From Telmatospirillum sp. (GTDB taxonomy: Bacteria; Pseudomonadota; Alphaproteobacteria; Rhodospirillales; Magnetospirillaceae), in assembly GCA_009712185.1 (NCBI GenBank), contig WASQ01000049.1:1-47799 (forward strand): DNA of 47,799 nt, given 5' to 3'. Under the pieces are notes generated by a model. It was not told the origin of the DNA. It saw only the letters and a program-made list of their open reading frames with translations, and searched no databases. Positions 1-5,843 of the stretch are shown here, piece after piece. The translations under genes were made by a program, and so were the position numbers. Within the stretch, counting starts at the first letter, position 1. Each line of letters opens with the position of its first letter.

Positions 1-2
1 AT

Positions 3-626
3 GGTCAGCCGCAGGCGCCCGCCTACGCTCCGGCCCCCGCCTATGCCCCTCCGCCGCCCGCTTATGCCGCGCCTCAGCCCGCCGCGGGAGGCCCCTGGGG
101 GCAGCCGCAGCAGCCTCAACAGCCGGCCGGCGGCGGATTTCTGCGTAATGCCGCGACCATGGCCGCCGGCGTCGCCGGTGGGGCGCTGATCGCGGAAGGC
201 ATTTCCAGCCTGTTCAGCGGGCATCGCGGCGGCCTGGGCGGTGGTTTCGGTGGTTCCGGTCTCGCCGGCGGCAGCCCCTGGGGCGGCGGGACGGGCAACA
301 CGGTCGAGAACGTCACGGTCAACAACTATTACGGTGATCAGGAGCCCCGCACCGAAGACGCCCGTTACGAGGATGATGGCCGTGGCCAGCAGGACGATAC
401 GCAATATCAGGATGCGTCCTACGAACCGGACAGCTATGACGACGGCGGCTACGACGATACCTCCGACGTCTGCCGCCATCTGATTCCAATCGGGGACCGG
501 GGGGCACCTCGCCGGAAACCGGGGGCCCCCGCCTTGCGACAGCTCCGGCCCTTGCGGCCAACCTTTGTCCGTTTGTCGCCTGGGCGACAGACGTTCCAGC
601 CCTCTCCGGGCAACCCTTGCGCATAA
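3..626 (+). CDS. DUF2076-family protein, 3' part
   Basis: This is the C-terminal part of a gene that begins before the window; the open frame runs from base 3. It shows a Pro/Ala/Tyr/Gln-rich linker, then a helix with AAGVAGGALIAEGI followed by SSLFSG, a Gly-rich stretch and an acidic Asp/Tyr/Gly-rich tail. That layout is typical of the periplasmic DUF2076 family, whose function is poorly known. In such proteins the acidic tail normally ends the chain. Here the frame continues about 50 residues past DDTSDV into an Arg/Pro-rich stretch unlike the rest, ending at TAA 624-626 and running through the candidate CooA operator. A TGA in place of the TGC at 471-473 would give the expected end, so the stop may have been lost or a sequence error is possible. 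Confidence 0.7.
   Translation, partial: GQPQAPAYAPAPAYAPPPPAYAAPQPAAGGPWGQPQQPQQPAGGGFLRNAATMAAGVAGGALIAEGISSLFSGHRGGLGGGFGGSGLAGGSPWGGGTGNTVENVTVNNYYGDQEPRTEDARYEDDGRGQQDDTQYQDASYEPDSYDDGGYDDTSDVCRHLIPIGDRGAPRRKPGAPALRQLRPLRPTFVRLSPGRQTFQPSPGNPCA
574..589. promoter_or_regulatory. Candidate CooA operator upstream of cooS
   Basis: The 16 bases TGTCGCCTGGGCGACA form a perfect 7-bp inverted repeat around a 2-base centre and fit the known CooA half-site pattern TGTCR-N6-YGACA of R. rubrum. The site is centred about 150 bases upstream of the chosen cooS start. No other promoter-like palindrome was seen between the DUF2076 gene and cooS, and cooA is the last gene of the same operon. An AT-richer CATAACAAT at 622-630 could supply the -10 region, but the transcription start is not known. 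The regulatory role is inferred. Confidence 0.75.
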
Positions 627-730
627 CAATAAGTCCGCCGGGCCTTTCGGACCGGGCGGGCGGGATCTCCCGGCCGCGCTCCATGACGGCGGCGCCGGAC
701 CGGCGGGAGCCGATGCAAGGGATGCCCGAC

Positions 731-2650
731 ATGACCAAGATCGATTGCGCGACCTGTTCCGTCGATCCATGCACCACCGAGATGGTGACGATCGCCGACG
801 CCATGGGCGTCGAAACCGCCTTTCACCGTCACGCCAGCCAGAATCCCCGCTGCGGCTTCGGTGCCCAGGGACTGTGTTGCCGGATCTGTCTCAAAGGTCC
901 CTGCCGGATCGCCCCCACCGGGGAAAGCCGTCAACTGGGTGTCTGCGGCGCCGACCGCCACACCATCGTGGCGCGTCACATGGCGCGCATGATGGCGGCC
1001 GGCGCGGCCTCGCATTCCGATCACGGCCGGCATATCGCGCTGGCTCTGAAGCATCTGTCCGAAGGTCATCTGGCGGATTATCAGATCCGTGACGAGGCGA
1101 AGCTGATGAGCGTCGCGGCCCGTCTCGGGATTTCCACCGGCGGACGCGACAACGCCGCCATTGCCGGCGACATCGCGCGGATCAGCCTGGGCGATTTCCA
1201 GAGCCAGGACGACAGCATTCCCTGTTCCTGGCTGAAGGCCTTCCTTCCCGCCCGCCGGGTGGAGAAGCTGGCGGCGCTGGGCATCATGCCGCACAACATC
1301 GACGCCACCGTGGCCCTGACCATGGCGCGGACCCACATCGGCTGCGACGCCGACCCGGCCAATGTGGCGCTGGGGGGGCTCCGGGTCGCGATGGCCGATC
1401 TCGACGGCATGATCCTGGCGACAGAACTGTCGGACATCCTGTTCGGAACCCCGGCGCCGGTCACCACCCGGGCCAATCTCGGTGTTCTCAAACGGGACGC
1501 CGTCAATATCGCGGTCAACGGCCATAATCCCCTGCTGAGCGAGGTCGTCTGCGACGTCGCCGCCGAGATGGCGGAAAAGGCCGTGGCGGCCGGCGCGCCC
1601 GAGGGGATCAACATCGTCGGCATCTGCTGTACCGGCAATGAGGTGATGAACCGCCATGGCGTTCCGCTGGCCACCAATTATCTGTCCCAGGAACTGCCGA
1701 TCCTGACCGGGGCGCTGGACGCGATGGTGCTCGACGTCCAGTGCATCATGCCCTCGCTGCCGCGCATCGCCGAGTGTTTCCACACCCAGATCATCACCAC
1801 CATGCCCCACGCCCGGATCAGCGGTGCGACCCATATCCCCTTCCGCGAGGAGGAGGCGGTCGCGATCGCGCGGCGGATTGTCGCCCTCGCCATCGACGCG
1901 TTCGGCCGGCGCGACAACGCGAAGATTCACATTCCCGATCTCAGCCAGAAGGCGACCGTGGGATTCGGGGCGGAGTCGGTGACGGCTGCCCTGGCGACGG
2001 TCGATCCGGAGGATCCGCTGAAGCCCCTGATCGACGCGATCACCTCGGGCGCCATTCAGGGCGTGGTTCTGTTCGGGGGCTGCAACAATCCGAAGACCGA
2101 ACAGGACAATTCCTATTTCCGGATCGCCAAGATCCTGGCGGAGCGCAATGTCCTGGCGCTGGCGACCGGATGCGGCGCGGGCGCGCTTGCCAAGATGGGC
2201 ATGATGACGTCGGAGGCGACACTTGAACATGCGGGCGAGGGACTGAAGGCGGTTCTGACCGCCATCGGGGCCGCCGCCGGCCTCGATGGGCCGTTGCCTC
2301 CGGTCCTGCATTTCGGCTCCTGCGTCGACAACAGCCGCGCCGTGGCGCTGGCGACCGCCCTGGCCAACCGCCTCGGGGTCGACCTGTCCGATCTTCCGAT
2401 CGTGGTCAGCGCGCCCGAATGCATGAGCGAGAAGGCCGTCGCCATCGGCACCTGGGCGATGACGATCGGCGTTCCCACCCATCTCGGCGCGGTACCGCCG
2501 GTCACGGGAGCGACGGTGGTATCCACCCTTCTGACCGAGACGGTGCGCGATCTGGTGGGGGGATATTTCCTGATCGACACCGACCCCGTCAGCGCTGCGG
2601 ACAAGCTTTATCAGGCGATCCAGGACCGGCGCGCCGCGCTGGGCCTCTGA
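731..2650 (+). CDS. cooS: Carbon monoxide dehydrogenase, Ni-Fe catalytic subunit
   Basis: CooS oxidises CO with water to CO2, two electrons and two protons at a Ni-4Fe-4S C-cluster. From ATG 731 the product is 639 residues, the same length as R. rubrum CooS, and all cluster ligands fall at the same numbers: D-cluster Cys41 and Cys49; B-cluster Cys50, Cys53, Cys58 and Cys72; C-cluster His265, Cys300, Cys338, Cys451, Cys481 and Cys531. This, with an AAGGGA Shine-Dalgarno sequence about 8 bases ahead, decides the start against the longer frame opening at 617. It is the first gene of the coo operon. Unlike R. rubrum, no cooF ferredoxin gene precedes it, so its electron acceptor is unknown. Expression is probably CO-dependent through the palindrome at 574-589. 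Confidence 0.96.
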   Translation: MTKIDCATCSVDPCTTEMVTIADAMGVETAFHRHASQNPRCGFGAQGLCCRICLKGPCRIAPTGESRQLGVCGADRHTIVARHMARMMAAGAASHSDHGRHIALALKHLSEGHLADYQIRDEAKLMSVAARLGISTGGRDNAAIAGDIARISLGDFQSQDDSIPCSWLKAFLPARRVEKLAALGIMPHNIDATVALTMARTHIGCDADPANVALGGLRVAMADLDGMILATELSDILFGTPAPVTTRANLGVLKRDAVNIAVNGHNPLLSEVVCDVAAEMAEKAVAAGAPEGINIVGICCTGNEVMNRHGVPLATNYLSQELPILTGALDAMVLDVQCIMPSLPRIAECFHTQIITTMPHARISGATHIPFREEEAVAIARRIVALAIDAFGRRDNAKIHIPDLSQKATVGFGAESVTAALATVDPEDPLKPLIDAITSGAIQGVVLFGGCNNPKTEQDNSYFRIAKILAERNVLALATGCGAGALAKMGMMTSEATLEHAGEGLKAVLTAIGAAAGLDGPLPPVLHFGSCVDNSRAVALATALANRLGVDLSDLPIVVSAPECMSEKAVAIGTWAMTIGVPTHLGAVPPVTGATVVSTLLTETVRDLVGGYFLIDTDPVSAADKLYQAIQDRRAALGL

Positions 2651-2682
2651 GTCCTGGCCGTCTTATTGGAAAGGGCGGACGG

Positions 2683-3468
2683 ATGAAAATCGCCGTGACC
2701 GGCAAGGGGGGAGTCGGCAAATCGACGCTGACCGGCCTCCTTGCCCGCGCCTTCGCCGATGACGGCTGGGGCGTGCTTGCCATCGATGCCGATCCCGATG
2801 CCAATCTGGCATCGGCCATCGGCGTGCCGCCGGACCGGGCCCGCGGGCTTCTGCCCATATCGGCAATGAGCGCCCTGGCCCGCGAACGGACCGGTGCCGC
2901 CGACACCGGTGGCTCCCACTTCATCCTCAACCCCCGGGTCGACGACCTGCCCGACCGGTTCGCCATCACCCACGAGGGGGTGAAGCTGCTTCTGATGGGG
3001 GCGGTGGAGCATGCCGGGGCCGGGTGCGTCTGCCCTGAGCATGCCCTGCTGCGCAGCCTTTTGAAGCACATCCTGAACCGTCGCCGCGAATGCGTTCTGC
3101 TCGACATGGAGGCGGGGGTCGAGCACCTGGGCCGGGGGACGGCGGGCGATGTCGATCTGCTGATCGTGGTGGTCGAACCCGGCGCCCGCAGCATCGAGAC
3201 CGCGCGTCGCATCGCCCATCTGGCCGGCCAACTGGGCCTGACCCGGATCGCCCATGTGGCGAGCAAGGTGACGGGCGCCGCCGACAGCGCCTTTATCGCC
3301 GAAGCCCTGGGCCGGGAGGTGATCGGTACGCTGCCGTTCGATCCGGACATTGCCGCGGCGGACCGGCGCGGAGTGTCGGCCTATGACCTGAGCCCCGCCT
3401 GCCGGGATCTGGCCGCGTCCCTGCGCGACGCCATTCTCGACCTGCGCCCCGATCCGACAAAGGAGTGA
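2683..3468 (+). CDS. cooC: CODH nickel-insertion ATPase
   Basis: CooC is a MinD/SIMIBI-class P-loop ATPase that helps insert nickel into the CooS C-cluster. From ATG 2683 it has 261 residues, close to the family length. The deviant Walker A GKGGVGKST is at residues 7-15, a second nucleotide-site motif DADPDANLA follows at about 35-43, and the metal-binding CxC is Cys115-Val-Cys117, which in characterised CooC binds Ni or Zn at the dimer interface. The frame is open far upstream inside cooS, but the start at 2683 places the P-loop at the N terminus as in the family. It lies 32 bases after cooS and its stop codon sits within the Shine-Dalgarno region of the next gene. Confidence 0.94.
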   Translation: MKIAVTGKGGVGKSTLTGLLARAFADDGWGVLAIDADPDANLASAIGVPPDRARGLLPISAMSALARERTGAADTGGSHFILNPRVDDLPDRFAITHEGVKLLLMGAVEHAGAGCVCPEHALLRSLLKHILNRRRECVLLDMEAGVEHLGRGTAGDVDLLIVVVEPGARSIETARRIAHLAGQLGLTRIAHVASKVTGAADSAFIAEALGREVIGTLPFDPDIAAADRRGVSAYDLSPACRDLAASLRDAILDLRPDPTKE

Positions 3469-3472
3469 TCCC

Positions 3473-3673
3473 ATGTGCCTTGCCAAAGCGGTTTATCAAC
3501 CGTCAACAGCCGACTTTCCCGACATCGCCGACGTCGTCGCCGTCGCGGTCGACGGGCCCGACCTCGTGATCGAGACCCTGTTCGGTGAAACGTTTCAACG
3601 TCCGTCGTCGCGCATCACCCGGATCGACGCCCGCAGCAACACCATTTTTCTGGCGAGGGAGGACAGCCTGTGA
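3473..3673 (+). CDS. cooT: CooT-family small nickel-binding protein
   Basis: This 66-residue protein begins MCLAKAVY and matches CooT in length, position and pattern. CooT is a small homodimeric protein needed for nickel delivery to CODH, and its Ni(II) site uses the N terminus with Cys2, which is present here. The rest is a short beta-rich fold with the family-like ends VAVAVDGPDLVIETLFGE and RITRIDARSNTIFL. AAGGAG lies 7 bases before the ATG and overlaps the cooC stop, pointing to translational coupling. Its stop overlaps the GTG start of the next gene. Confidence 0.88.
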   Translation: MCLAKAVYQPSTADFPDIADVVAVAVDGPDLVIETLFGETFQRPSSRITRIDARSNTIFLAREDSL

Positions 3674-3897
3674 CCGCCATGACCGCATCGGGAGAACCTC
3701 TCCGTCTGAAGATCCTGTTGTCCCACATGGCCGCTCACAATGCTGATCATGCGGCCGAGATCGCGGCTTTCTCCGGGATGATCGGTACGGACGGCGAGAA
3801 GGCGGCCCGCTTTGCCGCCGCCCTGGCCGATCTGGACCGGTCGAACCGGTCGATCAAGGCTTTGCTTGACCTGTTGACCGAAGGCGGGGAAAGCTGA
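3670..3897 (+). CDS. cooJ: CooJ-like nickel chaperone lacking the His-rich tail
   Basis: This 75-residue product occupies the place of cooJ in the R. rubrum order cooS-C-T-J. It contains His19, His23 and His27 in the run LLSHMAAHNADHAAEI, close to the HWx2Hx3H nickel motif described for the N-terminal helical domain of CooJ, with Met in place of Trp. It ends at EGGES without the long histidine-rich C-terminal tail of R. rubrum CooJ. The remainder looks helical. The start is GTG 3670, overlapping the cooT stop as GTGA; ATG 3679 is an alternative. The CooJ assignment rests on position and motif; the nickel role is inferred. Confidence 0.65.
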   Translation: MTAMTASGEPLRLKILLSHMAAHNADHAAEIAAFSGMIGTDGEKAARFAAALADLDRSNRSIKALLDLLTEGGES

Positions 3898-3933
3898 CCG
3901 GATATCCGGTGCCGACCGCCGACAGGAAAGACA

Positions 3934-4599
3934 ATGCCGCCCAGGTTCAGTATCGCAGACGTTCTGGCGGGGCCCGAGGGGGAGGACTTCCTTCAGGGCT
4001 TCGCCGCCCGTGACTATGGCAAGGGCATGCTGGTCTGTTCGGGGGATCTCGACGACAACGGCGTGTTCGTCGTCACCGGCGGGCGGTTGCGTGTCTTCCT
4101 GGTCGGCGAGGACAATGAGATCACCCTGTTCTATCTCGGGGTGGGCGACATTTTCAGCCTGCATTCCGGTTGTCTGATCGAGGCATGCGAGCCTTCGACG
4201 GTCCGCGTCACCGATATCGTCACCTTTCAGCGCAAGATGTCCTCCTCGCCGCTGCTGGCCTACAGCCTGGTGTCGATTCTGGGGCGGGCGATCACGGCCT
4301 GCATCGGCACGATCCAGAATCTGGCGTTCCATGACATCCGCCAGCGCCTGATCGGCTTTTTCCTGGACTGCGCCCGCTCGGGGGAGGTCACACAGGACGG
4401 GATCGAGGTCCGGACGTCGCTGACCGTGGAGAAGATTGCCCAACTGATCGGATCAGGCCGTCAGGCGACCTCGTCGGCGATCAGCGGCCTGATCCGCGAA
4501 AAGCTGATCGTCCGTCTGGCGCGGGGGCATTATGTGATTCCTGATACCGCCCGCCTGCTGCGGGCCGGACAGGCATCCCGGAAGGACGCCGGGATCTGA
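3934..4599 (+). CDS. cooA: CO-sensing heme transcription activator (Ser75 variant)
   Basis: CooA is a Crp/Fnr-family dimer whose heme binds CO and triggers DNA binding at coo promoters. This 221-residue protein starts MPPRF like R. rubrum CooA, keeping Pro2, the N-terminal heme ligand. The cyclic-nucleotide-like beta-roll comes first, with DNGVFVV and GRLRVFLVGE. The dimerisation helix at about 110-135 and the C-terminal helix-turn-helix LTVEKIAQLIGSGRQATSS follow. His77 (codon 4162-4164), the ferrous heme ligand, is present, but position 75 (codon 4156-4158, AGC) is Ser instead of the ferric ligand Cys75. It sits 36 bases after the cooJ-like gene with AGGAA ahead of the ATG, and is probably co-transcribed and autoactivated. 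Confidence 0.92.
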   Translation: MPPRFSIADVLAGPEGEDFLQGFAARDYGKGMLVCSGDLDDNGVFVVTGGRLRVFLVGEDNEITLFYLGVGDIFSLHSGCLIEACEPSTVRVTDIVTFQRKMSSSPLLAYSLVSILGRAITACIGTIQNLAFHDIRQRLIGFFLDCARSGEVTQDGIEVRTSLTVEKIAQLIGSGRQATSSAISGLIREKLIVRLARGHYVIPDTARLLRAGQASRKDAGI

Positions 4600-4626
4600 G
4601 GCGGTGCGCTGTCACCCGCCGCCGGG

Positions 4627-4654
4627 CCGTCCCGGCCGCGTGACGCCGGGACGG
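4627..4654. terminator. Hairpin between convergent cooA and dgoD
   Basis: The arms CCGTCCCGG (4627-4635) and CCGGGACGG (4646-4654) pair perfectly over 9 bp with a 10-base loop. It lies in the 95-base gap where the coo and dgo operons converge, so it could end transcription from both sides. There is no T-tract on either strand, so it may need Rho. Confidence 0.5.
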
Positions 4655-4694
4655 ATGGTCTGACGGTGCAACAGGCAGGCCGGCGGCCGGTCCC

Positions 4695-5843
4695 TCACCA
4701 CTCCGCGAAGCTGCCGTCGGCGTGGCGCCAGACGGGATTGCGCCAGCGATGGCCGATGGCGGCCTGGCGGATAACCACCTCCTCATCGATCTCGATGCCA
4801 AGTCCGGGACCTTCCGGAATCGCGACGAAGCCGTCACGGTAGTCGAAAACCTTGGGATCCTTCAGATAGTCGAGCAGATCGTTGGTTTTGTTGTAGTGGA
4901 TGCCAAGGCTCTGTTCCTGGATGAAGGCATTGTAGCTGACTGCGTCGATTTGCAGATTGGCGGCCAGCGCGATCGGTCCCAACGGGCAATGGAGGGCCAG
5001 CGCGACGTCATAGGCCTCCGCCATCGACGCGATCTTGCGGGTCTCGGTGATGCCGCCGGCATGGGAGGGATCGGGCTGGATGATGTCGACATAGCCCGCG
5101 TTCAGGATCGCCTTGAAGTCCCAGCGCGAGAACAGCCGTTCGCCGAGCGCGATCGGCGTGCCGCAATGATTGGCGATCTCCTTCAGGGCTTCGGCATGTT
5201 CGGACAGCACCGGTTCCTCAATGAACATCAGCTTGAAGGGTTCCAGCTCCTTGGCGAGGACCTTCGCCATCGGCCGGTGGACGCGGCCGTGGAAGTCGAC
5301 GCCGATGCCGAAATCGGGGCCCATCGCGTCGCGGATCGCCTGGACGCGCGCCAGCACCGCGTCGATCTTGGCGTGGCTGTCGATGAATTGAAGTTCCTCG
5401 GTGCCGTTCATCTTGACGGCGGTGAAGCCCCGGGACGCCACCTCGCGCGCGGCGCTGGCCGTGTCGGCCGGCCGGTCGCCGCCGATCCAGGAATAGACGC
5501 GGATGCTTTCGCGCAGCCGTCCGCCCAGAAGCTGATGGACCGGGACGCCGAGCGCCTTGCCCTTGATGTCCCACAGAGCCTGATCGATGCCGGCCAGCGC
5601 GCTCATATGGACACCGCCGCCGCGATAGAACCCGCCCCGGTACAGGACCGTCCAATGGTCCTCGATCAGAAACGGATCCTTGCCGATCAGATAGTCGGAC
5701 AGTTCCCCGACGGCGGCGGCGACGGTGGCCGCGCGGCCCTCCAGAACCGGCTCACCCCAGCCGGTGATGCCCTCGTCGGTCTCGATTTTCAGGAAGCACC
5801 ACCGGGGTGGCACCAGATAGGGGGTCATTTTGGTGATTTTCAC
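4695..5843 (-). CDS. dgoD: D-galactonate dehydratase
   Basis: DgoD removes water from D-galactonate to give 2-dehydro-3-deoxy-D-galactonate. The 382-residue protein has the family length and aligns by eye with E. coli DgoD along its whole length. It starts [15 protein letters not shown], has [21 protein letters not shown] and the enolase-superfamily barrel segments [13 protein letters not shown] and FIEEPVL. It also has [13 protein letters not shown] and [13 protein letters not shown], and ends in [10 protein letters not shown]. Metal ligands are expected in the D, E, E segments DFHG, IEEP and GER. It is the last gene of the dgoK-dgoA-dgoD operon, 44 bases after dgoA. Confidence 0.94.

Follow-up and report, generated by a model that had tools for sequence, protein, structure and literature searches.

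Position 75 of a Telmatospirillum CooA and the spread of the R. rubrum redox-switch cysteine among its relatives

The coo cluster and its regulator

The stretch of DNA analysed here (the window; 47,799 nucleotides of the Telmatospirillum sp. contig WASQ01000049.1) carries the genes cooS-cooC-cooT-cooJ-cooA on its forward strand, in the order found in R. rubrum. cooS (713-2650) encodes the catalytic subunit of an anaerobic Ni-CODH (TIGR01702, 788 bits against a cut-off of 478), and cooC (2683-3468) encodes the Ni-insertion ATPase, a CbiA/ParA-type NTPase. The product of the cooT-like gene (3473-3673) matched PF10133 with an E-value of 8e-4 at 20.1 bits, which is under the curated cut-off of 27, and aligned with its positional equivalent in R. 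rubrum with an E-value of 1.7e-9. The cooJ-like gene (3670-3897) has 75 codons and its product gave zero matches in Pfam or NCBIfam; in a two-row alignment it was 38% identical to R. rubrum CooJ and had the HxxxHxxxH motif in common, the His-rich tail being missing. In tblastn against the R. rubrum locus (L239), identities were 69% for CooS, 63% for CooC, 35% for CooT, and 56% for CooA. This locus was attributed to R. rubrum on the basis of its CooA, which is identical to 1ft9 across 219 residues, and its genes, assigned by place and sequence, are those that we take to bear these names. The gene before cooS encodes a DUF2076 protein, and neither cooF nor hydrogenase genes were found ahead of cooS in window positions 1-713.

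A palindrome of the CooA type (TGTCGCCTGGGCGACA; TGTCG-CCTGGG-CGACA) at 574-589 on the forward strand, 124 bp ahead of the cooS ATG, is a putative CooA operator. It is the single place in the 47.8 kb window that fits the CooA consensus TGTCRN6YGACR as printed in PMC6085454. By chance the window would be expected to contain 0.97 strand matches to this pattern, and at least two occurred in 27 of 100 shuffles; for the stricter TGTCRN6YGACA the expectation is 0.14, and at least one match occurred in 14 of 100 shuffles. Since so short a pattern can turn up by chance in a stretch of 47.8 kb, the site is suggestive on account of its place before cooS and not of the match numbers. A pattern scan of 480-4800 found no sigma-70-type promoter.

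cooA (3934-4599, forward strand) was identified as the gene of a CO-sensing activator of the Crp/FNR family by its match to 1ft9, its helix-turn-helix domain and its position in the tree. The product has 221 amino acids, starts with MPPRF, and contains the Crp-type helix-turn-helix at residues 137-210 (4342-4563; PF13545, 37 bits against a cut-off of 27). When searched by phmmer against PDB sequences, it matched R. rubrum CooA (1ft9) over residues 1-218 with an E-value of 2.9e-76 and Carboxydothermus CooA (2hkx) with an E-value of 2.8e-26. The initial annotation had read Pro2, Ser75 and His77 in this protein, with AGC at codon 75, and this reading is correct: Pro2, the N-terminal heme ligand in R. 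rubrum, is encoded at 3937-3939, codon 75 (4156-4158) is AGC, and codon 77 (4162-4164), at the conserved heme ligand position, is CAT. The single gap in the alignment with 1ft9 lies near residue 148, and the heme loop is ungapped, so that S75 stands opposite C75 and H77 opposite H77. Alignment to Carboxydothermus CooA, which the same annotation had proposed together with R. rubrum, again placed Ser75 opposite Cys and kept the His (GDIFSLHSG in the window, GDMFCMHSG in R. rubrum, and GDIFCTHTR in Carboxydothermus); His77 is present in all rows of an 8-row CooA alignment. The cysteines of the protein include Cys35, Cys80, Cys86, and Cys123, with Cys80 and Cys86 near the heme loop. It thus has the helix-turn-helix, the match to a solved CooA, the His77 and the coo neighbourhood of the CooA family, together with a Pro2 as in R. 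rubrum, which is not universal among CooAs; owing to its AGC codon it does not have the Cys75 of the redox-switching R. rubrum type.

Residue 75 and the neighbourhoods of other CooAs

Relatives were gathered by searches centred on family, order, class, phylum, and lineage, and by one genome-contig scan with a single peptide pattern near residues 53-62, position 75 lying outside it. With an HMM made from the 8-row alignment, 120 distinct sequences out of 238 loci scored above 90 bits, giving an alignment of 121 rows with the PDB row. His77 is present in 109 of these rows, and in 108 after the PDB row, a near copy of L166, had been left out along with the 12 rows lacking His77. Of these 108 CooAs, 85 have Ser at position 75, 11 have Ala, 7 have Thr, 4 have Cys, and 1 has Val, counted among the matches listed, which are the best matches per search (for example, the best 30 of 64 places in one) and include near-identical sequences that are not independent. 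The four Cys75 sequences among them are L032, L166, L167, and L177. L032 is identical to 1ft9 over residues 1-219, and its genome (G210) was therefore taken as R. rubrum; L166 and L167 are of the Carboxydothermus type, and L166 differs little from the Carboxydothermus row taken from the PDB. Within this sample of the family Ser75 is the most frequent state, and the Cys75 of R. rubrum is the exception. Cys75 was reportedly described as poorly conserved by Youn in 2004.

With Ser75 in 85 of the 108 CooAs among the matches listed, the idea that Ser75 is unusual was rejected, and a view of the natural Ser75 CooA as a rarity is not supported. The sampling also bears on whether AGC is a sequencing error for TGC. 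The two codons differ by one base, yet Ser is the majority residue among the matches listed and the relatives L003 and L004 carry the same AGC CTG CAT at codons 75-77, so that a base-calling error is needless as an explanation and its likelihood is negligible.

A scan of viral contigs found no CooA relative, and a scan of a plasmid collection gave one partial match. One locus outside the His77 set (L035, genome G211) is a 657-residue open frame of which residues 457-652 match the CooA model, with Arg at position 77; its CooA-like portion may serve as the output part of some other sensor.

Gene neighbourhoods were examined at 39 loci together with up to 6 kb of flanking sequence, some flanks being truncated. 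A cooS match was present in the flank of 16 of the 32 Ser75 loci, 3 of the 4 Ala75 loci, and 0 of the 3 Thr75 loci. The 39 loci are not free of copies, L085 and L086 being counted twice; of the 16, two are copies of a single sequence and one (L071) is a contig-end fragment. A Ser75 CooA next to a CODH operon is thus not unusual either. Ser75, a flanking cooS and CooA-type sites occur together in Azospirillum picis (L065), Carboxydocella thermautotrophica 41 (L068), and a Magnetospirillum MAG (L050), the sites of the first two being on the strand scanned. Cys75 was also considered as a mark of hydrogen-evolving CO users; this was unsupported, since Carboxydocella thermautotrophica (L068), which is hydrogenogenic (PMC6085454), has Ser.

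Other Ser75 genes have different surroundings. In Shewanella (L054, L055, L059, and L060) a CooA-type site lies several hundred bases upstream of the Ser75 cooA, and the flanks gave no CooS, CooC, CooF, or CooH match. At L061, L063, L064, L069, and L074 the Ser75 cooA lies near a CooH-like gene whose product is 64-66% identical to R. rubrum CooH, and no cooS match was found in the flanks.

The 6.1 Mb genome of the window contains a second CooA-like gene (L002; C130:33290), whose product has Thr75, is 38% identical to the window CooA and keeps His77; the second residue counted from its aligned start is not Pro, the true start being uncertain. The 19 kb read for it (L240), searched on both strands for CooA-type sites, contained neither such a site nor a cooS match. 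The gene lies about 0.3 kb past one that by eye resembles a NifS-type cysteine desulfurase. The best CooF-like matches in this genome are 43-44% identical, as against 67-75% in the genomes G007, G029, and G052. A cooMKLXUH-like hydrogenase operon, with a CooH 68-69% identical, is located on contig C67 (L247), and behind it lie a gene that encodes 5TM-LYT and histidine kinase domains and a pyruvate formate lyase-like one; this arrangement may belong to formate- rather than CO-linked hydrogen metabolism. The CooA-pattern site is absent from both strands of the 16.9 kb contig C67, of which less than 0.6 kb precedes the cooM match.

Direction of change and probable heme ligands

Trees were built without column 75, a quick one of 113 rows and a careful one of 42 rows hand-picked from the 113; the careful tree omits the outgroup, L177, L007, and L035, the last two of which were long-branched in the window's clade of the 113-row tree. 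The window and R. rubrum CooAs are sisters in both, with an SH-aLRT of 99 in the 113-row tree and support of 100/100 in the 42-row tree. Their clade in the 42-row tree comprises ten rows, with Ser in 5 (window included), Thr in 4, and Cys in 1, and the 113-row tree adds L007 (Ala) and L035 (Ile, without His77). Among the matches listed, R. rubrum is thus the only member of the clade with Cys75, the other eight rows of the 42-row tree being Ser (4) or Thr (4). By parsimony on the large tree, Ser at the node of the window and R. rubrum requires 16 changes and Cys 17; for the basal node of the CooA rows, the costs are 16 with Ser and 18 with Cys.

Because the two are sisters and the clade has no other Cys, Cys75 would most simply have been gained on the branch to R. 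rubrum, with a margin of one step. The opposite direction, in which Ser75 arose by loss from a Cys75 ancestor common with R. rubrum and the lineage dropped redox gating, is only that one step worse (17 against 16 changes). We nevertheless regard it as quite unlikely, as none of the other clade rows among the matches listed has Cys (eight in the 42-row tree, ten in the 113-row tree) and two clade rows have the identical AGC CTG CAT. Separate gains of Cys75 in Carboxydothermus and in L177 would likewise be most simply assumed. It is about an even chance that the redox lock is a recent local gain, acquired thrice separately in a family whose other members bear Ser, Ala or Thr, and that most CooAs, including that of the window, sense CO without thiolate gating.

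In R. rubrum CooA, the ferric heme is held by Pro2 and Cys75, and reduction swaps Cys75 for His77 (PMC6955866, PMC2652392). The initial annotation had proposed that the ferric heme of the window protein has another ligand. This holds to the extent that, with no thiol at position 75, the Cys75 ligand of R. rubrum is impossible; the ferric ligand itself is not fixed by sequence. With no thiolate at 75, the same nitrogen pair in both states is the most likely arrangement, and we consider the window protein to be an ordinary CooA with probable Pro2/His77 ligation in both redox states and without a thiolate switch (probability about 0.65). By analogy with Carboxydothermus CooA, the ferric and ferrous heme would both keep His77 and, from the other subunit, Pro2. 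CO would displace the N-terminal Pro2 ligand, and CooA would then activate the preceding cooS-cooC-cooT-cooJ genes; with the Cys-to-His switch of R. rubrum missing, CO sensing would be less tightly bound to a very low potential. Heme binding, the ligands, the redox potential, and the regulation of the operon are what we infer for the window CooA, and in the parts of the literature searched no spectrum of it or of any Ser75 CooA was found. Against this reading as a whole, the ligand set of the homologue, which itself bears a Cys, need not carry over, and the second CooA-like gene of the genome (L002, Thr75) may be an alternative driver of cooS.

Two other ligand arrangements were weighed. The ferric heme might be partly high-spin and bound by water or hydroxide, with redox gating through a different ligand. 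A residue other than a thiol, including Ala, Thr, and Val besides Ser, occupies position 75 in 104 of the 108 CooAs among the matches listed, and may be no ligand at all, which would leave room for such a state. It is unlikely, however, given that Pro2 and His77 are both there and that the equivalent pair serves Carboxydothermus CooA in both states (PMC6955866). Alternatively, Cys80, Cys86, Cys35, or Cys123 could provide the ferric thiolate instead of Cys75, so that a redox switch persists. Cys80 and Cys86 are close to the loop and Cys80 is common to R. rubrum, but Cys80 is missing in 6 of the 8 aligned rows, and R. rubrum uses Cys75 as its ferric ligand although it has Cys80 too (PMC2652392, PMC6955866). 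This makes a substitute cysteine very unlikely, and Pro2/His77 ligation in both states remains the preferred reading.

Comparison with known CooA systems

The value of the finding lies mainly in the caution that it suggests about extending the redox gating of R. rubrum to other CooAs. The switch has at times been ascribed to other CooAs as well; given the distribution of residues at position 75, the thiolate switch should not be assumed outside R. rubrum. In the genome paper on Carboxydocella thermautotrophica, CooA is called CO- and redox-sensing, and this forms the basis of an argument for redox control (PMC6085454); the CooA of this organism that adjoins the CODH genes (L068) has Ser at position 75. 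As a sister with the same Pro2 and His77, the window CooA is a fair natural comparator for what Cys75 adds, and if the redox lock is a local gain, it would be the nearest natural relative without the lock among the matches listed.

R. rubrum CooA (1ft9; L032, G210) is the closest relative among the matches listed, being 54-56% identical to the window CooA. The two are alike in Pro2, His77, the helix-turn-helix and their place after cooS-cooC-cooT-cooJ, and differ at position 75, which is Cys (TGC) in R. rubrum and Ser (AGC) in the window. They also differ just before cooS, where cooF and hydrogenase genes stand in R. rubrum and the DUF2076 gene stands in the window. The ligand mode of R. rubrum CooA has been termed unique (PMC6955866). 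The CooA-family proteins of Telmatospirillum siberiense (L087) and of the window's own genome (L002) have His77 as in the window CooA but Thr75, and L087, like L002, lacks a Pro2 when counted from the aligned start, its true start being uncertain, whereas the window CooA has Pro2. No cooS was found in the flank of L087. The Ser75 CooAs at L050/L004, L079/L003, L065, and L068 resemble that of the window in His77 and in flanking cooS and cooC, and are 33-40% identical to it; a cooF match lies in the flank at three of these four loci, and none was found for L068 or the window.

Carboxydothermus CooA-1 (2hkx, 2fmy; L166) belongs to the same family, has His at the ligand position and is 31% identical to the window CooA. 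Its aligned residue is Cys (GDIFCTH), unlike the Ser of the window, and its ligands are Ala2 and His82, which are unchanged on redox change (PMC6955866). Since Carboxydothermus CooA has the aligned Cys and yet shows no ligand exchange, residue 75 alone does not set the redox behaviour.
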